From IMG/VR virus record IMGVR_UViG_3300022602_000202, positions 1-40,874 of that record: a DNA stretch of 40,874 nt; one strand, given 5' to 3'. Below, one piece after another: positions 4,156 to 23,803 of the stretch. The notes below the pieces were generated by a model. It was not told where the DNA came from. It saw only the letters and a program-made list of their open reading frames with translations, and made no database searches. This DNA comes from a virus. Position 1 is the first letter of the stretch. Each line of letters opens with the position of its first letter. A program made the translations under genes and the position numbers.

Positions 4156-4184
4156 ATTATAAGTTCAAATGGTAAATCTGTCAA
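4156..4184 (-). promoter_or_regulatory. Consensus sigma70 promoter for the 4127-to-590 operon
   Basis: On the minus strand TTGACA (4184-4179) is separated by exactly 17 bases from TATAAT (4161-4156), a full consensus match. It fires leftward, 29 bases ahead of the ATG at 4127. It sits back to back with the start region of hemA on the plus strand. Confidence 0.85.
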
Positions 4185-4196
4185 GATTTATTTCGT

Positions 4197-4207
4197 TAAA
4201 TATACGC
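4197..4207 (+). promoter_or_regulatory. Late-type TAAATA box five bases before the hemA ATG
   Basis: TAAATA at 4197-4202 is followed by five bases and then ATG at 4208. No Shine-Dalgarno precedes this ATG. In T4 late promoters the box ends about six bases before +1, so transcription would start at the A of the ATG and give a leaderless mRNA. The same spacing occurs at 18975, 23803 and 37609. Confidence 0.55.
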
Positions 4208-5428
4208 ATGATTAAGCCAAAAACACAAGACGCTATCGCCTCTAGCCTTGAAAAACTCAAAACGGAAGGCAATTACCGGGTATTTACAGACATACTACGC
4301 CAGCGGGGAGACTTTCCTCGAGCTGTGTATTATGGAAAATACAATATCAAACAGATAACCAACTGGTGCTCAAACGATTATTTGGGCATGGGTCAGCATA
4401 AAGTAGTACTCGATGCGATGCACACAGCACTAGATACAGCAGGAGCCGGAGCAGGAGGCACTCGCAATATTTCCGGAACTACTCACTATCATATTGCACT
4501 AGAACATGAACTTTCCAAATTGCATGATAAAACAAGTGCCCTAACATTTACATCAGGCTATGTAGCTAACCAAGCTACCCTTAGTGTGCTAGGTCGTATG
4601 ATTCCTAATGCACATTATATCAGCGACAAACACAATCATAACTCAATGATCGTGGGCATCAAATCAACAAAGATTCCACGTACAGTTTGGGATCACAATG
4701 ATCTAAAACAATTAAAAGAAATACTCAACGGTCTAGATGACAAGTGCCAACCTATCATCGCGCTGGAAGGAGTTTACTCGATGGACGGCGATCGTGGATT
4801 GGTAGCAGATGTGTGTGAGCTTGCTCGCAAATACGGCGCTATGGTTTATGTAGACGAAGTACATGCTGTGGGCTTGTACGGCAAGCGAGGCGCAGGAGTT
4901 GCAGAAGAACAGCAGTGTGTGGATGGCGTTGATGTTATACAAGGTACTTTAGCCAAAGCATTTGGAGTTCAGGGCGGATACATTGCCGCCGGTCGTGATC
5001 TAGTTGATATGGTGCGTAGTTACGCAGATGGCTTTATCTTTTCAACTTCAATGAGTCCAGTTTTATGTGCAGGCGCATTAGCAAGTGTTAAGTACGTACA
5101 AGATCATACCGAACTGCGTGAAAAGATAATGACTGTTGCTCATAATACAAGAGAACATCTAAAGGCCGCAGGATTAGAAATAAATCCATTATCCGAAAAT
5201 GGACATATAGTTCCTGTAATGATCCGAGACGCTGTTAAGTGTAAGGCCATTTCAGATTGGTTACTAGACGAAAAGGGTATCTACGTCCAACCTATCAACT
5301 ATCCAACAGTGCCTTGGGGAACTGAAAGATTAAGATTTACACCAACACCAAATCATACAGAAGCAGATATAGATTATCTAGCTCGTAGTTTAAAGGAAGC
5401 ATTTAATGTCATTAACAACCAAAATTAA
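4208..5428 (+). CDS. hemA: 5-aminolevulinate synthase (C4 pathway)
   Basis: Pyridoxal-phosphate enzyme that condenses glycine with succinyl-CoA to 5-aminolevulinate, the first step of heme synthesis in alphaproteobacteria and mitochondria. 406 residues, the usual bacterial length. Visible hallmarks are W-C-S-N-D-Y-L-G-M near 53-61, the Gly-rich G-A-G-A-G-G-T-R-N-I-S-G near 79-90, D-E-V-H-A-V-G near 216-222, and the Schiff-base lysine in G-T-L-A-K-A-F-G (about K250). The ATG at 4208 is preferred to the frame opening at 4169 because family members begin close to it. It overlaps the DUF454 gene by 23 bases. It is on the opposite strand to almost everything else. The gene looks intact. An ALAS in a phage is unusual and suggests capture from an alphaproteobacterial host. 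Confidence 0.93.
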   Translation: MIKPKTQDAIASSLEKLKTEGNYRVFTDILRQRGDFPRAVYYGKYNIKQITNWCSNDYLGMGQHKVVLDAMHTALDTAGAGAGGTRNISGTTHYHIALEHELSKLHDKTSALTFTSGYVANQATLSVLGRMIPNAHYISDKHNHNSMIVGIKSTKIPRTVWDHNDLKQLKEILNGLDDKCQPIIALEGVYSMDGDRGLVADVCELARKYGAMVYVDEVHAVGLYGKRGAGVAEEQQCVDGVDVIQGTLAKAFGVQGGYIAAGRDLVDMVRSYADGFIFSTSMSPVLCAGALASVKYVQDHTELREKIMTVAHNTREHLKAAGLEINPLSENGHIVPVMIRDAVKCKAISDWLLDEKGIYVQPINYPTVPWGTERLRFTPTPNHTEADIDYLARSLKEAFNVINNQN

Positions 5429-5834
5429 AAAATACTTGTGGTTCACAGCAGGTATCCTATTCTTAGGAGTGGCCTACATAGGTGTAATAGTACCAGGTAT
5501 TCCTTGGTCAACACCTAGTCTAATTGCCGCATGGTGCTTTAGCAAGAGCTCAGAGCGATTCCATAACTATATGCTCAACCATAAACTGTTTGGCCCATTC
5601 ATTAAGAATTGGTCAGAAGGCAGAGTCTATCCTGCTAAAGTAAAATGGATCATGTTCTTGTGTATGGATGCCAGCTTGGTTATGATGTGGTTCGCTACAC
5701 ATAATTGGAAAGCAGTCGCAGGCATGAGTGTTATGTTTGCTCTTATACTGTTATGGGCAAGCCGTTACCCAACTACAAAAGAAGAAAGCGACCGTAGAAA
5801 GGCCGCTGGTGAAAAGATTGGTTGGTTAAAATAA
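5406..5834 (+). CDS. DUF454 (YbaN-like) small inner-membrane protein
   Basis: 142 residues with the DUF454 pattern: an N-terminal membrane segment with G-V-I-V-P-G-I-P-W-S-T-P, then the A-A-W-C-F-S-K-S-S-E-R-F-H box and N-H-K-L-F-G-P-F-I-K-N-W, and two further hydrophobic helices. Its start lies inside the end of hemA and has its own AAGGAAG ribosome site, so the two genes are co-transcribed and coupled. The biochemical role of DUF454 is unknown. Pairing with ALAS suggests a link to heme or porphyrin handling at the membrane; that is inference. Confidence 0.85.
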   Translation: MSLTTKIKKYLWFTAGILFLGVAYIGVIVPGIPWSTPSLIAAWCFSKSSERFHNYMLNHKLFGPFIKNWSEGRVYPAKVKWIMFLCMDASLVMMWFATHNWKAVAGMSVMFALILLWASRYPTTKEESDRRKAAGEKIGWLK

Positions 5835-7177: not shown

Positions 7178-8584
7178 TTATCGACGAGCGTTTGCTCGAA
7201 CTTCTTCGAAGGTATATTCTTTAACCAATTTACCATCGCGGTAGACTTCAAACATAGCATCCATCCAATCAGGAATCATTGAAATTCCTTTGTCTGTCCA
7301 ACGCTTAGGTGCTCTAACTGCACTTTCAAATTCGCCACCACTGGTCCAAAGGTTAACACGACCTGCTTTAGATTTTTTACCACTATCGGTAATTGGATCT
7401 TTCTGCACGTCAACCCATTCACCGTTAATGCAAGCACTAGAGCATTTCATTGCAAACTTTTGAGTATCGCGGTCTAGTTGTTGCAACAATGCACCACCCA
7501 TACCAAACGCAATATTGTCTGCACTAAAGCCATGTACCATAAAGTCGCCTAGGATCATTCGGATAGTGTGTTCATTCACACCGTCACCTTGAATCAAACG
7601 CACATTGTTCAGTACACGGAAACCTTTTTCGTTTGTAGTAGTACCAAACTTTTGTGCGAGCTTTTGCACAAGTTGACGACAAATTGTAAGTGGATCACCT
7701 GAGTCAGGACGAATAACAACAGTAGCACCACTGTCAATTACTTGTTGGCGGAGTTCACCACCCCACAAGTTATCAACTGCGTTGAACACGTCATAGCTGT
7801 CAGACACAATAGCAACAATGCTACCTGGCTTGGCAAATTGATTGAGCATGTTGCGATATGCATCTACTTCGCCGTCACGACCCCATGAAGTAATTGTGCT
7901 ATGCTCTGCGGCAGGGATTGAGAAGCCAGATACTCCAGCATTGTAGTATTCGCGAGCATACAGAATACCGGTAATAGTGTCAGAGCCCATAAAGTTAACG
8001 AGGTGAGCGGCACCCCCAATTCCTGCAGACTCTTGCGAGCTAACACCACGAGCGCCAAAATCGTGAAGCTTAAAATCAATGCTAGAGGGGTCACCTGTTT
8101 TCTCCAAATAGTCAGCAATTACTTGCTTGATTGTGTAAGATTGAGTAGCTACTGTGGTAGGATACCAAATAGCACGAAGCAAGGCTGTTTCCAACCATGT
8201 AGTTAACCAGAAGCATTCTGGATCTGTGTTTTCGATTGTTGCCAGTACGTTTTTAACTGGGACAACAGTTCCTTCTGGCACGGCTTTAATGACAACTGGG
8301 AGGTAACCGCCGTGTGTATCAAGAATGTACTGCCAACCTTCTTTGTTAAAAGGTTCACCGTGCGCTGTCCAAATTTCATTTGCGATATCGATATCAGCTT
8401 GTGTAATTGGATCAAGCAAGTACTCTTTGATAAAGGCCTGTAGTCCGAAGAATACAGTTTCGTCATAGCGTCCGCCACGTGATTCAATGTAACTATAAAC
8501 ACCTGTGGTGCCCATAGGATATTGTTTGAACATACTTGCTTTGTATGAGTCTGTGTTGAGAATAATGTTTTTTGCGAGTTTCAT
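7178..8584 (-). CDS. nadV: Nicotinamide phosphoribosyltransferase
   Basis: 468 residues, full length for NAMPT/NadV. It joins nicotinamide and PRPP to give NMN, the rate-limiting step of NAD+ salvage. Hallmarks: G-A-R-G-V-S-S-Q-E-S-A-G near 177-188, the catalytic histidine in A-A-E-H-S-T-I-T-S-W-G (H228), D-S-Y-D-V near 262-266, the phosphoribosyl-binding R-P-D-S-G-D-P near 292-298, and D-G-V-N-E-H-T-I downstream. AAGGAAC precedes the ATG. It lies about 40 bases after the NMN adenylyltransferase gene on the same transcript, so the two form a complete nicotinamide-to-NAD+ pathway. Confidence 0.95.
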   Translation of the reverse strand: MKLAKNIILNTDSYKASMFKQYPMGTTGVYSYIESRGGRYDETVFFGLQAFIKEYLLDPITQADIDIANEIWTAHGEPFNKEGWQYILDTHGGYLPVVIKAVPEGTVVPVKNVLATIENTDPECFWLTTWLETALLRAIWYPTTVATQSYTIKQVIADYLEKTGDPSSIDFKLHDFGARGVSSQESAGIGGAAHLVNFMGSDTITGILYAREYYNAGVSGFSIPAAEHSTITSWGRDGEVDAYRNMLNQFAKPGSIVAIVSDSYDVFNAVDNLWGGELRQQVIDSGATVVIRPDSGDPLTICRQLVQKLAQKFGTTTNEKGFRVLNNVRLIQGDGVNEHTIRMILGDFMVHGFSADNIAFGMGGALLQQLDRDTQKFAMKCSSACINGEWVDVQKDPITDSGKKSKAGRVNLWTSGGEFESAVRAPKRWTDKGISMIPDWMDAMFEVYRDGKLVKEYTFEEVRANARR

Positions 8585-8624
8585 TTTAAGTTCCTTAAAA
8601 GTTAAAAGCCTTTGCGTCTATCGC

Positions 8625-9650
8625 TTAGGCACCTACGAAGTGTTGTAGGATTTCGTAGTGGTCTTCAAAGCATTCGTCCGACCGGACTTCTGCAATAGGC
8701 ACCCACCGAGCCTTTTCAGCGTCATCACTTCCTTTTACTTTAGGCAGTTCGCCGTCTGGTAATTGGATATGAAACGCATGAGTAATAATGCGACCTCGTG
8801 GACTACGGTCAATCGCATCAAAAACCTTACTGCGTACAATGCTACCTTTTAATACAGGAGCAGGTACTTTAATTTGTGTTTCTTCACGGAGTTCACGCAA
8901 CATTGCCGCTTCGACTGATTTGTCAGTATTAGCGTTTACATATCCGCCTGGCAAAGCCCAAAGGCCTCGACCTGGCTCTGCACGGCGCTTGATCATTAGT
9001 ACATGGCCTGATTGGATAACTACTGCATCTGCTGTGCTAAAGATTGGAGGATACTTTAGTCCGGCATAATGTTTCTTGTATTCGGTTACAAACTCACGTT
9101 CTCTAATAATTTGTTCCCATGCTTCTGTGCGTCTAAAACGATATAGGAAGTCATATGTAGTACTAGGCACTACATTTTTAATGTATTCCATATTGTTTTT
9201 CTGTTTGAAGTACAAGTCACGAATGTCTGTAGCATCCAATGGTTCGAGTAGTTCTACTTCTTCAAATCCCCATTGTGGGAACATGTCTAAGTAAAACGAG
9301 CTAGGATCTTTGTGATGTCCAATAATACCAATCTTCTCGCCAGGCGTTGTATGTTTGGCTACTAGAGTTTGTACACGAACTGCCCATGCTTGATCATTAT
9401 AAATTGTATCTGGGTTGGGTTCAATTGCTATGTTTAATGGTCCACGCATACCACGTGTGGCTTCGTAAATCATATCATAACGTTCTTGAAACGTAAATGG
9501 ATTCTTGTAAGTGCGTGGTTGGTTAGCACTACCGCAGATAAAAACAAGTTTGTCAGCTAATGCCGTAGCACGTGATGCCAACAATAAATGTGCGTTGTGA
9601 AATGGTTGAAATCGTCCTATAAGGACAAGGGTATCGTATTTCTTAGACAT
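8625..9650 (-). CDS. nadM: Bifunctional NMN adenylyltransferase / Nudix hydrolase
   Basis: 341 residues, the usual length of phage NatV/NadM-Nudix fusions. The N-terminal nucleotidyltransferase domain shows G-R-F-Q-P-F-H-N-A-H (12-21) and the partner motif D-A-T-D-I-R near 140-146, and converts NMN plus ATP to NAD+. The C-terminal domain (about 205-340) carries the Nudix box core R-E-L-R-E-E-T; the stretch between the initial Gly-Gly and this core is longer than the usual spacing and has Lys at the position of the first box Glu, so hydrolase specificity is uncertain. It starts after AAAGGA and is driven by the consensus promoter at 9715-9743. Confidence 0.93.
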   Translation of the reverse strand: MSKKYDTLVLIGRFQPFHNAHLLLASRATALADKLVFICGSANQPRTYKNPFTFQERYDMIYEATRGMRGPLNIAIEPNPDTIYNDQAWAVRVQTLVAKHTTPGEKIGIIGHHKDPSSFYLDMFPQWGFEEVELLEPLDATDIRDLYFKQKNNMEYIKNVVPSTTYDFLYRFRRTEAWEQIIREREFVTEYKKHYAGLKYPPIFSTADAVVIQSGHVLMIKRRAEPGRGLWALPGGYVNANTDKSVEAAMLRELREETQIKVPAPVLKGSIVRSKVFDAIDRSPRGRIITHAFHIQLPDGELPKVKGSDDAEKARWVPIAEVRSDECFEDHYEILQHFVGA

Positions 9651-10826: not shown

Positions 10827-10901
10827 TGGTGCGCCTAACAGGAATCGAACCTGCTGTCTCGGGTTTTAGAAGCCCTTGCTATACCATTTAGCCTTAGGCG
10901 C
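10827..10901 (-). tRNA. tRNA with apparent CUA (amber) anticodon; Arg-UCU is the alternative reading
   Basis: The acceptor stem GCGCCTA/TAGGCGC is a perfect 7 bp. The D stem GCTA/TAGC is perfect. The T arm has stem GCAGG/CCTGT around TTCGATT, and CCA is encoded. With these arms fixed, the seven-base anticodon loop is TTCTAAA, giving anticodon CTA (CUA), which reads UAG. The anticodon stem is imperfect: three G-C pairs flanked by A.G and C.A mismatches. Reading UCU (Arg) would require an irregular loop and a worse stem. It is a clear tRNA gene; its identity is uncertain. Confidence 0.85.
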
Positions 10902-12933: not shown

Positions 12934-13167
12934 TTAATAAAGTTTTGGGGGAAGTTGCTGTCCACGTAAATGTTTTAACCAGCGAGCCCTTGCGGCTCCT
13001 TTTTTACGTTTGCGTACTGTGGTAGGTTTTTCATAAGATTGACGTGCAATGACTTCAAGTAGGTGCCCACCTTCATCCACCTTTTTCTTAAATTTTCTAA
13101 GGGCGGCATTAAAGTTGTCCCCAACCTCTACAGATACTCCCCGTTTAGTGTTGTAATTTTTTCTCAT
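12934..13167 (-). CDS. rpsU: Ribosomal protein bS21
   Basis: 77 residues from the ATG at 13167 (a TTG at 13179 is possible). It follows the bS21 pattern: V[19 protein letters not shown], then [25 protein letters not shown] and a final L-Y. bS21 sits at the 30S platform near the anti-Shine-Dalgarno and affects initiation. Phage-borne bS21 is known from large aquatic phages, where it is thought to replace the host copy and bias initiation toward phage mRNA. It overlaps the 3' end of clpX by about 20 bases. Confidence 0.92.
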
Positions 13168-14383
13168 TTGTCTCTTCAAATACTAGAGCGGCTGAACCAC
13201 CCTTTACTGTATCTTTACTTATGCGAATTCCTGTCAAACCGCGAGCTACGAGATCTGTCACTTCAAACTGGTATTTTAGAAGGGTATTTTCCAAACAATT
13301 TTTAAGTCCGCGAGCATTAGTTTCGAGTTCTTTGGCTTGTTCTGCGATTATTTCTAAAGCATCATCGTCAAACGTTAATGCTACACCTTCGAGCTCAAAC
13401 AGATATTGATACTGTCGGATTAGGCTATTTTTGGGCTCTTTTAAGATGGTGATCAAGTCGCTGATGCTTAGTTCATTGACATGTGTAATTATTCCAAAAC
13501 GTCCTACAAATTCTGGGATCATACCGTAGGTGATAATGTCCTTTGTAGTAACATCTTTGTATACATTTTTTATTTGATTTTTGCTGAATACTTTACTGCT
13601 GAATCCAATTGAGTTAGCGTTAACTCTGCGATCAATAACTTTGTCCAAGCCCACAAATGCACCACCACAAATAAACAAGATTTGGCTGGTGTCGATTTCA
13701 ATCATTTCTTTACCTGGATGTTTGCGCTTGTCACTTGCGGGTAAACGCATAACAGATCCTTCGATCATTTTCAGGAGACCTTGCTGTACGCCTTCACCAC
13801 TTACGTCTCTAGTGATACTGACGTTTTCTCCTTTTCGGGCGATCTTGTCAATTTCATCAATGTAAACGATTCCGCGTTCTGCTTTCTTAACATCACCGTC
13901 GGCAATAGCTACGAGTCTGCTAAGGATACTTTCAACATCATCACCCACATAACCCGCTTCAGTAAGTCCTGTAGCATCACATACAGCAAATGGCAAATCT
14001 AGGAACTCTGCAATTTTCTTAGCCATCATAGTTTTTCCGCACCCTGTAGGGCCTAGGATAAGAACATTGGACTTTTCTAGTTTAATATCTTCGCTAGGAT
14101 TATTGATGCGTTTGTAGTGCTGGTTAACTGCAACACTAAGGCTGATCTTAGCATGATCTTGTCCAATTACATATTGGTCGAGATATTCTTTGATCTTTGA
14201 TGGATTATAGCGAGATTGTAATTCTGTTTCAGAAGGAAACTCTTTTACTTTTTCTTCTGTAAGGATATTAGAACAAAGATCTACACATTCGTTGCAAATG
14301 CCCACGTTGTTTCCAACTATGAGTTTTTCAACATCTTCTTTGCTCTTTCCACAAAAATCACATGAGTGTTTATCTTTAGTCAC
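13145..14383 (-). CDS. clpX: ATP-dependent protease specificity subunit ClpX
   Basis: 412 residues, full length. The N-terminal zinc-binding domain has C-D-F-C (C8, C11) and C-N-E-C (C30, C33). Walker A is G-P-T-G-C-G-K-T (111-118) and Walker B I-V-Y-I-D-E-I-D. The pore loops G-Y-V-G (144-147) and R-K-H (220-222) are intact, as is the ClpP-docking loop I-G-F (259-261). The sensor-2 region reads A-R-G-L-K-N. It should therefore unfold tagged substrates and dock on host ClpP; no clpP is visible here. ClpX recognises the LAA end of ssrA tags, and the phage tmRNA tag ends A-L-A-A. The start is GTG with AAGGCG upstream. It lies in an operon between envelope genes and bS21. Confidence 0.95.
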
Positions 14384-14771
14384 TGAATACGCCTTGTAAA
14401 AATTCTGTAATATTATTTACTCTATGTCCATTAATAAAGGAAAAAAGTTTGACCTTGTCTGGATCAGTAGAACTAAAGTAAACATTAGATTTGCCTAGCA
14501 TGTAACTTAGAAAAGTTTGTATAATAGGATTATCTGTATCAGCATTTACGTATACTGCATTACTTCTGGCTACGGCGTAAAGTAGCCACTCTACGTGAGT
14601 TTCGTTTTGATAATAATAAAGATTAATATCAGTGTCTAATTGTAATTCTTGCCCAAGCCACTGACTAGACTCGTCTTGTTCTGATTCGTTGAGTCCGATT
14701 AATAGTATGCTTGGGTTTGAGTTTTCATAGAAGTCAGGTGGTGTTATTAGAGTAATTTTACCCGTTGTCAT
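14376..14771 (-). CDS. Hypothetical protein upstream of clpX
   Basis: 131 residues, acidic, alternating beta and alpha segments ([29 protein letters not shown]) suggestive of a small Rossmann-like or TIR-like fold, without a diagnostic catalytic motif. It overlaps both the membrane-protein gene upstream and clpX downstream, so it is translated in the same unit. A ClpX adaptor or modulator is a possible but untested idea. Confidence 0.6.
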
Positions 14772-16209
14772 TCTTCTTTGCCTTTTGTTGGTATTCTTCT
14801 TGTGTGATAGGCTGGATTATGTTTTGCCAAAGTCCGCTTTCTTTTTGTTCTTCGTTTTGAACATAAGTAGGTTCTTCCATCTTGTGTTCTGTTGTTTGTC
14901 CATTCTCATCTGTAAGGATAACAGAATCTTTGGTATGTGCTACTTTGTATTTTTGGAACTCTGGAGGTAGTGCGTTGGTGTGATACATCTGACCATTTAC
15001 ACTAACATATTCTCCGTTTACATGATGTATGACACTATGCTCTGGTTCAATAGCAGGCTCTTCGACTTCTGCTTCTTCAAGGGGTGCAGGTTCTGCTGTA
15101 TTATCTAGACCTAGATAATATGACTTAGCAGTTTCCTGACGTTTGGCTATCTCAGCAAAGGCTTCATCCTCTTCTGGAGTAGTAACATCAGATCTAGGAA
15201 CAGGTACATATTCTTCTTCATGTACTTCTTCACCGAAACTGTAATTAACAGGTGCTTCATATTTGAAGCTAGGTCCAGTCTGGATCCATTCTCCTGTCTT
15301 AGGATCTTTGATTCCTTCAAACGCTTCTTTGATTTCTAATTCCGGAGCGGGCTCTATGTCTGCATCTTCTTCAATATGGATTTCTTCTGGTGTAGGTTTA
15401 TCACCAACATCTGCTACATACGGATCGGGAGTATTTTCGTCTAATTCTTTTTGTTCTTTAGCCCAAGCAAAACTATATTGGCTTGCTAAAAGCAGGACTA
15501 CAGCCAAGGGATCCAAAACGATAACGATAAGAACCGTGATCCATGTAACTGCTTTTTCAAGGACTGACGCATCTGGGTTCGAACCGTAAATGAATGCCGC
15601 GATGTATTTGATAGGTCCAACGTCTGCTTCAACCTTGCGATTCTCTGCACGTATCGGTGCCGCTTCGTCATTAAGCTGACTAATTGTTTTCTGGTTGGCT
15701 TCGATATCTTTAGCAAGCGATTGTCTATCTTTTTGTTGCGATTTGCGAACTGCATTAGCTTTGTCGGCACCGCCTTCCGATGTTGAGCGTGCCATGATTT
15801 GATCCACAGCCTCATCCATCTGTTTAAGTTGCTTGCGGTCAGCTTCAATGTTCTCACGGGCAGTTTTGATCTTTTCGTCATATATTGCTAATTTTGATTG
15901 TACATCACCACTTACTAGACTTTGGTCTGAGTGTGCTTTTGATAAGAATCCAAATACACCAATACTTGTAATCAGCATCAGTACTATTACAGCTGGCAAC
16001 ATATATGCTTTAAGGAATCTAGGAGCACGTTCCCAATACTGTTTAAGCCATACAGTAAGGCTCAGCTTACCTAACTCGATTACTACACCCATAATCACAA
16101 TGGGAACGACCATAGCAGGATAGATCGCAACCAATCCTTCTACGGAATAATAAATGGCCACAGCACTGATCATCAGTCCTGATAGCAGAGTTAAGTAACC
16201 TATTAACAT
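14758..16209 (-). CDS. Inner-membrane protein with cytosolic coiled coil and acidic tail
   Basis: 483 residues. Three transmembrane segments lie in the first 90 residues, then a long coiled coil (about 100-195: K-T-A-R-E-N-I-E-A-D-R-K-Q-L-K-Q-M and similar heptads), a fourth hydrophobic helix near 218-240, and an acidic Pro/Glu-rich tail of about 230 residues. Large phages often carry such coil-containing membrane proteins; no enzymatic motif is visible. It follows a secreted protein gene, whose TAG stop lies inside this gene's ribosome site (TAGGAAAC). Confidence 0.75.
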   Translation of the reverse strand: MLIGYLTLLSGLMISAVAIYYSVEGLVAIYPAMVVPIVIMGVVIELGKLSLTVWLKQYWERAPRFLKAYMLPAVIVLMLITSIGVFGFLSKAHSDQSLVSGDVQSKLAIYDEKIKTARENIEADRKQLKQMDEAVDQIMARSTSEGGADKANAVRKSQQKDRQSLAKDIEANQKTISQLNDEAAPIRAENRKVEADVGPIKYIAAFIYGSNPDASVLEKAVTWITVLIVIVLDPLAVVLLLASQYSFAWAKEQKELDENTPDPYVADVGDKPTPEEIHIEEDADIEPAPELEIKEAFEGIKDPKTGEWIQTGPSFKYEAPVNYSFGEEVHEEEYVPVPRSDVTTPEEDEAFAEIAKRQETAKSYYLGLDNTAEPAPLEEAEVEEPAIEPEHSVIHHVNGEYVSVNGQMYHTNALPPEFQKYKVAHTKDSVILTDENGQTTEHKMEEPTYVQNEEQKESGLWQNIIQPITQEEYQQKAKKNDNG

Positions 16210-19018: not shown

Positions 19019-19525
19019 TTAAGCGTTTAATACTTTTGCTACGCTGTTCATTACTGCGGCAATACGTCCAATATCACGCAAATTCTCTACTGTGTAGCCT
19101 TCTTGCTTCAAAGTCTCGTAATGTGCCTTAACGCAGAAATGACACTTACCAACAATGCTTGCGGCCAAACTGAACGCTTCAAAATTGCTCTTAGTTGTAC
19201 CACCATGACTTGCGATTGCGTTCATACGTAACTGTGCTGGCAAACCTTTTAGCTGTTCGTCATCAGCCATTTCAACATATGGATACCATACATTGTTCTG
19301 TGCCATGATGCTTGCGGCTGTCATTGCTGAGTCAGCAAACTTTGGTGCGTCTGTTAACATTACACTTAGTACTTTTCCGTTACCAGTTGCGGCCAATGCG
19401 GCTACGGCACATCCCATAGCTACATCAGCATCCAATGTACTACGCAAAAGAACTGCGTCAAGATTTAACTTGGTGTCCTTTGCGTAGTCTGGCAACGCTT
19501 CTTTAATTGCTTCATTAAAACTCAT
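19019..19525 (-). CDS. ahpD: Alkyl hydroperoxide reductase AhpD-like (carboxymuconolactone decarboxylase fold)
   Basis: 168 residues, close to the usual AhpD length. The active-site motif is C-H-F-C-V-K-A-H (C128, C131, H135), and the Ala-rich helices around it fit the CMD fold. AhpD passes electrons, from lipoyl proteins in the mycobacterial system, to the peroxiredoxin AhpC. ahpC lies two genes upstream on the same strand, so the two probably act together against peroxide. AAGGAAA precedes the ATG. Confidence 0.88.
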   Translation of the reverse strand: MSFNEAIKEALPDYAKDTKLNLDAVLLRSTLDADVAMGCAVAALAATGNGKVLSVMLTDAPKFADSAMTAASIMAQNNVWYPYVEMADDEQLKGLPAQLRMNAIASHGGTTKSNFEAFSLAASIVGKCHFCVKAHYETLKQEGYTVENLRDIGRIAAVMNSVAKVLNA

Positions 19526-20050: not shown

Positions 20051-20677
20051 CTATTTCCAAAGTACCTGTCCGAAGTTTTCCGGTACAAATCCAAAGTAAT
20101 CACATTTGTATTTGCTTTGAGGGAACCACCCTAGATGGTGCCACTCGTCTTTTCTTTTCAACATTTCGCGGGCGCCTGCTTCCCAGTCAATGGACAATAT
20201 CTTTGGTTCATACATCTGTCTAAGTTCTTCAATAGGTTCCCATTGATCACTATCATATTCCCAATGCAATATTTCAATCATTGTACCATCTGCTGATATA
20301 TATTCTAAACTGATATCTAGACCCCATCGTGGTCTTTGTTGTAATACACGATGGATTCTAGGATCAGTAGCAGACATGCGCCATAGTTGTTCGCTGGCTT
20401 CGCCTTCATAAGCTCTACGATAAAGCATAAAACTATGGTTCATAACTACACCTTCTTTAACGTTAGGTGTTTGTGCAAACCAATTAGTCTTTTGTGCTAA
20501 ATCATCTTCGCTGTAAAAACTACCGCCAGCGGCACGAACCAGTTCAACTTCTAACTCAGTAAGGCTAAACCCATTAGGTGCCATAAGATATGTTGGGTCA
20601 TCGCTAAGTTTTGACTCATCACATGGTACACTATAATAGCCTAGTTTTTCTAATATAGAATTTTGAACTGATAACAT
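20051..20677 (-). CDS. Hypothetical protein between ahpC and the acetyltransferase
   Basis: 208 residues, Trp/Tyr-rich, no signal peptide. The C-terminus (Y-K-C-D-Y-F-G-F-V-P-E-N-F-G-Q-V-L-W-K) and centre (W-G-L-D-I-S-L-E-Y-I-S) look like a folded, conserved phage protein; no family named. The start overlaps the ahpC stop (TAATG). It ends in TAG, embedded in the next ribosome site. Confidence 0.65.
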   Translation of the reverse strand: MLSVQNSILEKLGYYSVPCDESKLSDDPTYLMAPNGFSLTELEVELVRAAGGSFYSEDDLAQKTNWFAQTPNVKEGVVMNHSFMLYRRAYEGEASEQLWRMSATDPRIHRVLQQRPRWGLDISLEYISADGTMIEILHWEYDSDQWEPIEELRQMYEPKILSIDWEAGAREMLKRKDEWHHLGWFPQSKYKCDYFGFVPENFGQVLWK

Positions 20678-21216
20678 TATAGTGTCTCGCCACCGACTGT
20701 GCGGTTACAAGCACATAGTTCGCCAGTTTGCAATGCGTCAAGAATACGCAATGTTTCTTCTGGGCTACGACCCACGTCCAAGTTGTTTACAGTAACGTGT
20801 TGGATTGTATTATCTGGGTCAACGATAAATGTAGCGCGAAGTGCGGCACCTGCTGGAGCATAGAATACGCCCAACTGTTCTGCCAAACTCAATTCGCCAC
20901 GCTGTGTGTCTGCAAATTGATTGTGTGTGATCTTGATCAAATCTGGATGTGATTTTTGCCATGCGATTTTACAGAACTCATTGTCTGTTGAACCAGTTAG
21001 CAATACTGCATCGCGATCTTCAAAGTCGCCATTTAGCTTGTCATAAGCTACGATCTCTGTTGGACATACGAATGTAAAATCCTTTGGATAGAACACGATT
21101 ACTTTCCACTTGCCTGCGAATGATGTCTCATCGATTGTGAAGAAAGCATCTTCTGGCTGTCCTGGCTTAACACCTGTTACTGCGAAATGTTCTAATTTAT
21201 CACCGATTGTTTTCAT
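20677..21216 (-). CDS. ahpC: Peroxiredoxin AhpC
   Basis: 179 residues. Peroxidatic cysteine in F-T-F-V-C-P-T-E-I (C51); C-terminal resolving-cysteine region G-E-L-C-A-C-N-R (C168, C170). It reduces hydrogen peroxide and organic peroxides. The strong ribosome site AGGAGG follows a promoter at about 21280-21310. Together with AhpD it makes a peroxide-defence pair. Phage-encoded AhpC is unusual. Confidence 0.93.
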   Translation of the reverse strand: MKTIGDKLEHFAVTGVKPGQPEDAFFTIDETSFAGKWKVIVFYPKDFTFVCPTEIVAYDKLNGDFEDRDAVLLTGSTDNEFCKIAWQKSHPDLIKITHNQFADTQRGELSLAEQLGVFYAPAGAALRATFIVDPDNTIQHVTVNNLDVGRSPEETLRILDALQTGELCACNRTVGGETL

Positions 21217-22329: not shown

Positions 22330-22359
22330 ATTATACAATGAAAAAGGTTGCCGAAGCAA
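22330..22359 (-). promoter_or_regulatory. Sigma70-type promoter overlapping the tmRNA terminator
   Basis: Minus-strand TTGCTT (22359-22354), 18 bases, TATAAT (22335-22330). The -35 lies in the stem-loop of the tmRNA terminator. Confidence 0.6.
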
Positions 22360-22366
22360 CCTTTTT
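22341..22366 (-). terminator. Terminator of the tmRNA gene
   Basis: AAAAAGGTTGC-TTCG-GCAACCTTTTT: an 11-bp stem with a tetraloop, A-run before and T-run after, so it works in either direction. Confidence 0.88.
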
Positions 22367-22367
22367 G

Positions 22368-22617
22368 GTATTTTCTGTTACGAGGTATTTCCTACCCTAA
22401 GCGGTGTTTAGGCCGCTAATGCGAACATTTCGTCGTTTGCGTTTACGTTTTTTATGCTGATAACGTCAGTCATCTCTCGTGTTGCCGTCTCTACTATCTC
22501 GCCACGTCGAAGCCAATACATCCCCACTCAGAGTACTATTTCAAATACTCTCAGTGGAGATGCCGGGGGTCGAACCCGGGTCCGCAACGCCTTCGCTTTG
22601 AAGGAATTACAACAATA
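22368..22617 (-). ncRNA. ssrA: Circularly permuted (two-piece) tmRNA
   Basis: Read on the minus strand, the acceptor piece comes first: a T arm (CCGGG-TTCGACC-CCCGG) and acceptor strand CATCTCC with discriminator A at 22562-22555. A 29-base hairpin-forming spacer (22554-22526) follows. Then comes the classical tmRNA 5' end: GGGGATG (22525-22519), which pairs with CATCTCC, followed by TTGGCTTCGACG. The tag frame is GCA...TAA at 22440-22408, encoding A-N-D-E-M-F-A-L-A-A, with the typical A-N-D-E start and A-L-A-A end. This order (3' part before 5' part) is the permuted form of alphaproteobacteria and a few other lineages, where the spacer is excised. CCA is not obviously encoded. Ends are approximate, from promoter and terminator. 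Confidence 0.93.
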
Positions 22618-22623
22618 TTTAAA

Positions 22624-22652
22624 ATTATACTACCAATTGACCATTACGTCAA
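22624..22652 (-). promoter_or_regulatory. Sigma70 promoter of tmRNA
   Basis: Minus-strand TTGACG (22652-22647), 17 bases, TATAAT (22629-22624). It lies just ahead of the acceptor piece and defines the 5' end of the precursor at about 22617. Confidence 0.85.
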
Positions 22653-22742
22653 CCGAGGGATCGCCAATCACCCCATGTCCCTCACATTCCGACGGGCCTT
22701 ACACCCGCCCAAATCACTATGTGACTTTACAATCAGCGACTT
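22653..22742 (-). other. Structured non-coding stretch upstream of tmRNA
   Basis: About 90 bases without a gene. On the minus strand it can form at least three hairpins: AGTCAC-ATA-GTGATT, a G/C-rich one around GGGC...GCCC, and GAGGGA...TCCCTC. None has a T-run. A TAAATA box lies just upstream (22745-22750), so this stretch may be the leader of a longer late tmRNA transcript, or a separate small RNA. Confidence 0.4.
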
Positions 22743-22744
22743 GG

Positions 22745-22750
22745 TATTTA
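22745..22750 (-). promoter_or_regulatory. Late-type box (ATAAATA) ahead of the tmRNA region
   Basis: ATAAATACC overlaps the stop codon of the gene at 22748. It points toward the structured stretch and tmRNA and could give the tmRNA a second, late promoter. Confidence 0.45.
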
Positions 22751-23803
22751 TGGTTTTGGAACTGGTACAGTAGGAACGGTAGTTGACCCAGGAACAGGAA
22801 CTACACAAAGTGAAATTGGAAGAGAAATCGATGTTAGTGCTATACCTTTAGGCAGTTGAAGTAGCTCCCAAAGAGCAGTAAGAGCTTGTATAAATTTATA
22901 TATTATATTGAATATAAAATTCATGATCCATACATAGATATCAGTTATGATATGCATCAGATCAAGTGTCGGGGCGTTAACATGTAGATTCAACGGAAAA
23001 AACCAGTCAAATGGTTTTCCGAATATACCAAATTTAAAATTTGCTATGTTATCTAAAATTTCTTTTGCTGTGCTACCTAATTTTTTTAGAGCATCTACTA
23101 TATCTTGGAATGTAGGAGGCAATACTAAAAAGGCGGCAATCTGGTATAGAATATTAGTATATATCTTATCCCATAATTCCTGCCAGGTAGGAAGAGTCGG
23201 ATTGTAATAAGCATCAACCGCGGCTAATACTCCCCTGATAGCATCGAACGCTTGTTTTATTTTTTTAATTAGAAATGCCCAAATTCCGTAAACGATAGCT
23301 TTTACAATGTATACAATGTCCTTGTCTGGTGCTGAAATATCACCAAAGAGTGGCCAAGGAATATCTAGAGTCTTCAATAGACTTTTTAGTTCGTCTATCG
23401 CTTCATAGTAGACCCTAGTAACATAGGCTACTATTTTATCCCACAATTGGTTAGCATCATCAAATATATCTGCAACGGTTAGATCGAGAATGCCTAAACT
23501 TAGATCTAATACTCCTAATCCAAAACTTTTAAGAGCTTTGTAGGCATTTTCGATTAGTGTCCATATTGGCTCAACCCATGCTTTAACTGCATAGTTGTAC
23601 AACTTGCTCATTGCGTCCTTGATATCATTAATTGGATCTATGGTTGGTAATGTAAGACAGTTAATATTAAGGAACGGTATAGATATTCCGACTACAGTAG
23701 TAGACGTAGACACAGGAGGAATAGAGTTATATAGGGTCTGCATATTTAAATTAGACCCTAAATCAATATTGATTTCTCCGGCGACGTCTTGATGTTCTAT
23801 CAT
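22748..23803 (-). CDS. Large hydrophobic/amphipathic phage protein
   Basis: 351 residues rich in Ile, Leu, Trp and Tyr, with long amphipathic helices (for example 55-115 and 165-190) and a Pro/Val-rich C-terminal tail (V-P-V-P-G-S-T-T-V-P-T-V-P-V-P-K-P). No cysteine-rich or catalytic motif. It could be a virion or membrane-interacting protein; family not named. No ribosome site: ATG lies five bases after TAAATA, so it is probably a leaderless late gene. Confidence 0.65.
   Translation of the reverse strand: MIEHQDVAGEINIDLGSNLNMQTLYNSIPPVSTSTTVVGISIPFLNINCLTLPTIDPINDIKDAMSKLYNYAVKAWVEPIWTLIENAYKALKSFGLGVLDLSLGILDLTVADIFDDANQLWDKIVAYVTRVYYEAIDELKSLLKTLDIPWPLFGDISAPDKDIVYIVKAIVYGIWAFLIKKIKQAFDAIRGVLAAVDAYYNPTLPTWQELWDKIYTNILYQIAAFLVLPPTFQDIVDALKKLGSTAKEILDNIANFKFGIFGKPFDWFFPLNLHVNAPTLDLMHIITDIYVWIMNFIFNIIYKFIQALTALWELLQLPKGIALTSISLPISLCVVPVPGSTTVPTVPVPKP

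Follow-up and report, generated by a model that had tools for sequence, protein, structure and literature searches.

Can a tailed phage carry out ribosome rescue with an RNA of its own, and where would the proteins tagged in this way be sent? The question is raised by IMG/VR virus record IMGVR_UViG_3300022602_000202, analysed here as a complete record of 40,874 bases (the window), which holds a gene for a circularly permuted, two-piece transfer-messenger RNA (tmRNA) and, downstream of it, one for ClpX, the unfoldase that reads ssrA tags. An earlier reading made from the letters without database searches (the sequence-only reading) had described a phage-borne permuted tmRNA gene that was taken from an alphaproteobacterial host and gave the phage its own ribosome rescue. 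The gene itself is confirmed here by sequence comparison as a complete circularly permuted tmRNA gene; it is of the beta type.

Identification of the tmRNA gene

The gene lies entirely on the minus strand (22652-22341). With Rfam model RF01850 (beta_tmRNA; curated cut-off 84 bits), positions 22666-22339 were matched over the whole model (1-331/331) at 201.4 bits and an E-value of 1.3e-63, and RF04321 (tmRNA_permuted; cut-off 47 bits) gave 150 bits. ARAGORN called a permuted gene (tmRNA*) with the tag ANDEMFALAA. The acceptor-side piece comes first and pairs with the 5' piece across the spacer, the acceptor strand CATCTCC (22562-22556, -), followed by the discriminator A at 22555, facing GGGGATG. 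ACUG is read after the acceptor strand, so that the CCA end is not encoded in full. The minus-strand RNA fold beat those of all 200 shuffled sequences (z -4.56). Lesser promoter-like matches were expected by chance in the region at a mean of 1.0, as estimated from shuffles. The piece order, complementary ends, hairpin spacer, tag with stop, promoter and terminator that had been read from the letters alone were thus all recovered, and the covariance models agree with them (coordinates in Table 1).

By its gene content the contig is viral, as the sequence-only reading had supposed, and not host chromosome: its protein families include virion and tail-spike proteins, an exonuclease, a class Ia ribonucleotide reductase, which is closest to those of Xanthomonas phage X1 and Stenotrophomonas phages, and ThyX. 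No integrase was noticed in the window, and a megablast search against named phages returned no nucleotide relatives.

Conservation among phage tmRNAs

Pairing was counted in an alignment of the window with its phage relatives (34 sequences), with the tRNA-like structure taken from the Rfam match. The acceptor stem over the permutation joint was paired in 100% of cells, with two-sided changes in 3 of its 7 pairs, and its third pair (columns 62/217) was U-G in 34/34 sequences, corresponding to the alanine identity pair G3.U70. The T arm was 98.2% and the P2 helix 97-98% paired; two outer helices were poorly paired (62% and 32%), which we put down to the alignment and to real variation. The covariation score was 0.457, against 0.07-0.12 in slid controls. 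Because the joint stem is paired throughout, changes in a compensatory manner and keeps G3.U70 invariant, the RNA is under selection as a tmRNA.

Downstream of the tag, a terminator-like hairpin was seen at 46 of 55 loci, compared with 2 of 55 positions drawn at random. Of the 54 loci whose upstream sequence was long enough, 13 had a promoter in which 10 or more of the 12 bases matched, for the most part at a constant offset (random places, ~6%); the motif of the window recurs at nearly the same offset in L123, L169, L178, L183, L185 and L187, among others. No relatives of the upstream neighbour (22748-23803) were found. The interiors of the readable tags of 54 relatives vary widely, and their ends are nearly all LAA, MAA, VAA or IAA; the tags of the 55 phage tmRNAs retain C-termini of the ClpX type, with a variable middle.

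ClpX, ClpP and SmpB

The clpX gene lies ~8 kb downstream of the tmRNA on the same strand, and its product has the zinc domain, Walker A and B motifs, GYVG pore loop, RKH loop and the IGF loop that binds ClpP. Zinc domain, GYVG and [IVM]GF loop were retained in 81/81 ClpX proteins compared and RKH in 72/81; by eye, tag endings were not linked to loss of the RKH loop. An origin of this ClpX in one particular bacterium was rejected, as the best bacterial matches are only ~48-55% identical and scattered over phyla. A second, divergent ClpX (~49-51% identical to that of the window) occupies the same place in L318, L329, L330, L340 and L349; no tmRNA was found in the two of these contigs that were searched (L318, L340).

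Eighty viral contigs were picked by ClpX alone and then searched for a permuted tmRNA, which was present in 58 of them; it lay upstream of clpX on the same strand in 58/58, at a distance of 2.6-17.5 kb (median 4.6 kb). Among viral contigs without an ARAGORN tmRNA, clpX was found in 1 of 48. For sampling by a third gene, loci were chosen by a DUF4407-like neighbour, which also served as the tree marker. Loci chosen in this way were mostly without clpX, and tmRNA was present in 13 of the 50 contigs searched. On the marker tree (97 rows), 56 rows had both genes, 13 clpX only, 10 tmRNA only and 18 neither, with 4 changes for clpX and at least 13 for tmRNA. Selective coupling of tmRNA and ClpX was rejected as an explanation, as the strong-looking raw counts with their fixed order and strand are undercut by this tree.

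Of the ClpX contigs, all six with a length of 160 kb or more encoded ClpP, and 4 of these also had the tmRNA. The matches (228-281 bits) are below the curated cut-off of 308.6 yet extend over the whole model, and all six fetched ClpP proteins, four of them from the contigs of at least 160 kb, keep the Ser, His and Asp triad. As some of the contigs are near-copies, we count about four lineages.

Several results weigh against a phage tmRNA that works together with phage proteins. An independent-pairs test on the marker tree gave no correlation between tmRNA and clpX, although the informative pairs were too few to exclude one; tmRNA was present in 10 of 28 scorable relatives without clpX, including the close kin L303/L304; clpX was found in 0/44 other viral contigs with permuted tmRNA, which had been chosen by DNA pattern; clpP is absent from the 40.9-kb window fragment; and SmpB was found in 0/28 contigs or phage genomes searched. 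No complete phage-encoded set of tmRNA, SmpB and ClpXP was thus encountered. Since clpX changed only 4 times and no correlation was seen, we put the co-occurrence down to shared ancestry: the tmRNA-clpX pair looks like the inherited arrangement of one phage group, and a working partnership of the two, though plausible, is not proven. As SmpB was not found in the 28 records, host help is required, and the ribosome rescue that the sequence-only reading had credited to the phage remains plausible as a process but would be the phage's own in part at most.

Proposed function and alternatives

In established tmRNA biology, the precursor is cut by RNase P and other nucleases, its CCA end is completed, the RNA is charged with alanine and enters the ribosome with SmpB, and the nascent chain is tagged and released. 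For the window, it is in our judgement quite likely that the beta-type two-piece tmRNA of a tailed phage rescues ribosomes with host SmpB and, with less certainty, that tagged chains go to a ClpXP with phage ClpX. Host RNA polymerase would transcribe the gene early from the sigma70 promoter; host RNase P and 3' nucleases would cut the single transcript into two pieces, to be held together by acceptor stem and P2; a host enzyme would complete CCA, and alanyl-tRNA synthetase would charge the RNA through G3.U70. Host SmpB would then bring it to ribosomes stalled during infection, where the nascent chain would receive ANDEMFALAA and the ribosome be freed. The tagged proteins are probably fed to phage ClpX, and, less certainly, ClpXP would contain phage ClpX with, in larger relatives, their own ClpP, so that the phage might replace much of the tag-and-degrade route.

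The tmRNA may instead be chiefly an offensive tagger, by which chains on ribosomes stalled on degraded host mRNA would be tagged early in infection, destroyed and their amino acids recycled, as the authors of the phage Melnitz study put forward for that phage (PMC9004378). The host-like sigma70 promoter, which would allow early expression, and the presence of a phage ClpX are in its favour; many tmRNA phages are without ClpX, however, and sequence does not tell rescue from tagging. We regard this as possible, at well under even chances. Somewhat more doubtful is a private tag-and-degrade pathway, in which a group of tailed phages would combine a tmRNA that has a tag series peculiar to it, a ClpX tuned to these tags (joined by ClpP in larger genomes) and the ribosomal protein bS21, and would borrow SmpB alone from the host; if it existed, stalled translation products of the infected cell would be routed to a phage-controlled protease. 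Rescue with host SmpB followed by delivery to phage ClpX remains the preferred reading.

Origin of the tmRNA gene

The alpha model RF01849 was matched at 73.3 bits, over its cut-off yet 128 bits under the beta model. Fetched alphaproteobacterial tags start with ANDN and betaproteobacterial tags, which were sampled from one order around one betaproteobacterial genome, with ANDE; in this order, the permuted tmRNAs have ANDE tags, and most one-piece tmRNAs ANDERFALAA or similar. The tag of the window is of this betaproteobacterial kind. A comparison of the tag pattern with GTDB species genomes, with Asn as AAC only, gave no match. In a tmRNA tree of 190 columns, built by a quick method and with modest support, the bacterial alpha sequences are separated from the portion in which the window lies together with Stenotrophomonas phage DLP6, the beta sequences of bacteria and most of the ClpX phages; the position of the window itself is not firm.

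Descent of the gene from an alphaproteobacterium, as the sequence-only reading had it, would fit the window's 5-aminolevulinate synthase (541 bits), an enzyme typical of that class. Phage-borne genes for this enzyme (AlaS) are, however, found in phages assigned to alphaproteobacteria and in others assigned to gammaproteobacteria (PMC11480375), so that the enzyme leaves the host unsettled. Against the model scores, the ANDE tag and the tmRNA tree together, we reject an alphaproteobacterial source as very improbable; a beta-type source or exchange between phages appears more likely.

Slightly less credible again is a recently captured host gene that drifts as a functionless passenger: tmRNA presence is labile on the marker tree, but compensatory changes over divergent phages, intact tags and terminators point to purifying selection, and within the tree set the RNA has its highest identity, 75%, with that of a further phage, L175. 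Equally improbable is a role as decoy for the host tmRNA, or as its inhibitor, such as has been reported for the short tmRNA of phage DS6A (PMC11915505): the DS6A RNA has no tag frame, whereas here divergent relatives have retained the tag with its stop, the acceptor stem, the T arm and G3.U70.

Neighbouring genes and the CUA tRNA

Two genes upstream of clpX form an overlapping run with it: the DUF4407-like gene overlaps the gene of a 131-aa protein, which in turn overlaps clpX (Table 1). The 131-aa protein had no match in Pfam, NCBIfam or PHROG. Both proteins are candidates for ClpX partners. Distant relatives of the DUF4407-like protein were seen in Pelagibacter phage Mosig and in jumbo phages. 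Between tmRNA and clpX there are also genes for an AhpC-like peroxiredoxin (20677-21216, -; Pfam AhpC-TSA) and, by eye, an AhpD-like protein (19019-19525, -).

Table 1. Features of the window, with positions counted from its first base.
Feature	Position	Strand	Basis and remarks
5-Aminolevulinate synthase	4169-5428	+	TIGR01821, 541 bits; strand opposite to most window genes
DUF454 protein	5406-5834	+	next after 5-aminolevulinate synthase; compare published viral AlaS genes (PMC11480375)
Ribosomal protein bS21	12934-13179	-	TIGR00030, 50.4 bits (cut-off 28.95); phrog_21469; overlaps clpX end
ClpX unfoldase, 412 aa	13145-14383	-	NCBIfam ClpX, 542 bits (cut-off 359)
131-aa protein	14376-14771	-	overlaps clpX start; family in 53/55 loci
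DUF4407-like membrane/coiled-coil protein	14758-16209	-	weak DUF4407 match under cut-off; family in 52/55 loci
Permuted tmRNA gene, whole beta_tmRNA match	22339-22666	-	Rfam model takes in promoter region
Intrinsic terminator AAAAAGGTTGC-TTCG-GCAACCTTTTT	22341-22366	-	scan; 11-bp stem, UUCG loop, T run
Tag frame GCA AAC GAC GAA ATG TTC GCA TTA GCG GCC TAA (ANDEMFALAA*)	22408-22440	-	ARAGORN
Start of 5' (mRNA-like) piece, acceptor strand GGGGATG	22519-22525	-	yields G3.U70 alanine identity pair
Intervening spacer, 29-nt hairpin	22526-22554	-	expected to be cut out; length strongly variable in relatives
Acceptor (3') piece: P2 strand, T arm, acceptor strand	22555-22614	-	sequence and Rfam match
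Sigma70-type promoter TTGACG-N17-TATAAT	22624-22652	-	scan, 11/12 matches

The only tRNA of the window (10827-10901, -; ARAGORN) has the amber anticodon CUA, and CUA tRNAs also occur in the relatives L125, L168, L175, L181 and L317/L348. Amber suppression is not proven, as the window's CUA tRNA has odd 31-39 and 27-43 mismatches in its arm and resembles tRNA-Arg(UCU). For three of the five TAG-ended window genes (16219, 21888 and 38504, -), another gene follows within 9-12 nt, in the same frame and with no stop in between. Of the close junctions in loci with a CUA tRNA, 4/5 with TAG were in frame and stop-free in this way, against 11/50 with TAA or TGA (Fisher p 0.017); in other loci the shares were 45% and 23%. 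At the DUF4407 junction, the window and L125 have TAG as the stop but L168 and L175 have TAA; read-through is therefore not conserved.

A nicotinamide adenine dinucleotide (NAD) salvage pair is located at 7178-9650 (-), with nicotinamide/nicotinate phosphoribosyltransferase-like and nicotinamide mononucleotide (NMN)-adenylyltransferase/Nudix genes; a similar pair stands near the tmRNA in DLP6.

Comparison with known systems

Phage tmRNAs had been said in the sequence-only reading to be usually of one piece, which is out of date: 53 of 133 unique phage tmRNA structures are two-piece, and 50 of these 53 come from marine or aquatic phages (PMC9004378). Phage sequences in the tmRNA database number 79 (PMC11915505). 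Earlier publications describe huge phages that carry both tmRNA and SmpB (PMC7162821), a jumbo phage, AP-J-162, whose tmRNA and Clp genes are listed separately (PMC11242549), and Clp proteases near phage bS21 (PMC9723584). For a conserved tmRNA-ClpX(-ClpP)-bS21 arrangement, no report was found in the papers searched, which included neither subscription papers nor preprints.

With the permuted tmRNAs of betaproteobacteria (RF01850, RF04321), that of the window shares the piece order, the spacer, the pairing of acceptor and P2 strands, a tag of the form ANDExFALAA and the layout of promoter and terminator; it differs in its location in a phage and in the M of its tag, where the bacteria have R, N, H or S. 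A permuted tmRNA in a T4-like phage is also what links the window to the two-piece tmRNAs of aquatic phages such as Methylophilales phage Melnitz (PMC9004378), but the Melnitz tmRNA is alpha-like and stands under a glutamine riboswitch (PMC9004378), whereas that of the window is beta-like with its own sigma70 promoter, and Rfam found no riboswitch there. The T4-like phage DLP6 (KU682439) resembles the window in its NAMPT and NMN-adenylyltransferase/Nudix-type genes and in a permuted tmRNA, so far unannotated (L002:5941-6284, 136.8 bits); its tag is ANDDSFAPMAIAA, its tmRNA lies ahead of a tRNA array, and it is absent among the ClpX matches listed. ClpX together with ClpP is shared by the jumbo phages AP-J-162 and Phosso of Sinorhizobium, Atu_ph07 of Agrobacterium and G of Bacillus, with a ClpX merely ~50% identical to that of the window. 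Phosso and AP-J-162 also have a tmRNA, which in Phosso is encoded on the strand opposite to clpX and ~31 kb away from it; no permuted tmRNA was found in Atu_ph07 or G.

Taken alone, the tmRNA of the window is one further two-piece phage tmRNA, of the beta and not the alpha type. Its setting is weightier, in a viral group with a tagging RNA, a tag-reading unfoldase, often a protease, and a ribosomal protein, which would offer a natural case in which to ask what leads phages to take charge of ribosome rescue and proteolysis, and whether the tags and ClpX of the virus have diverged from their host counterparts. Against the two-piece phage tmRNAs already published, what is added here is a tmRNA followed on one strand by ClpX and then bS21.
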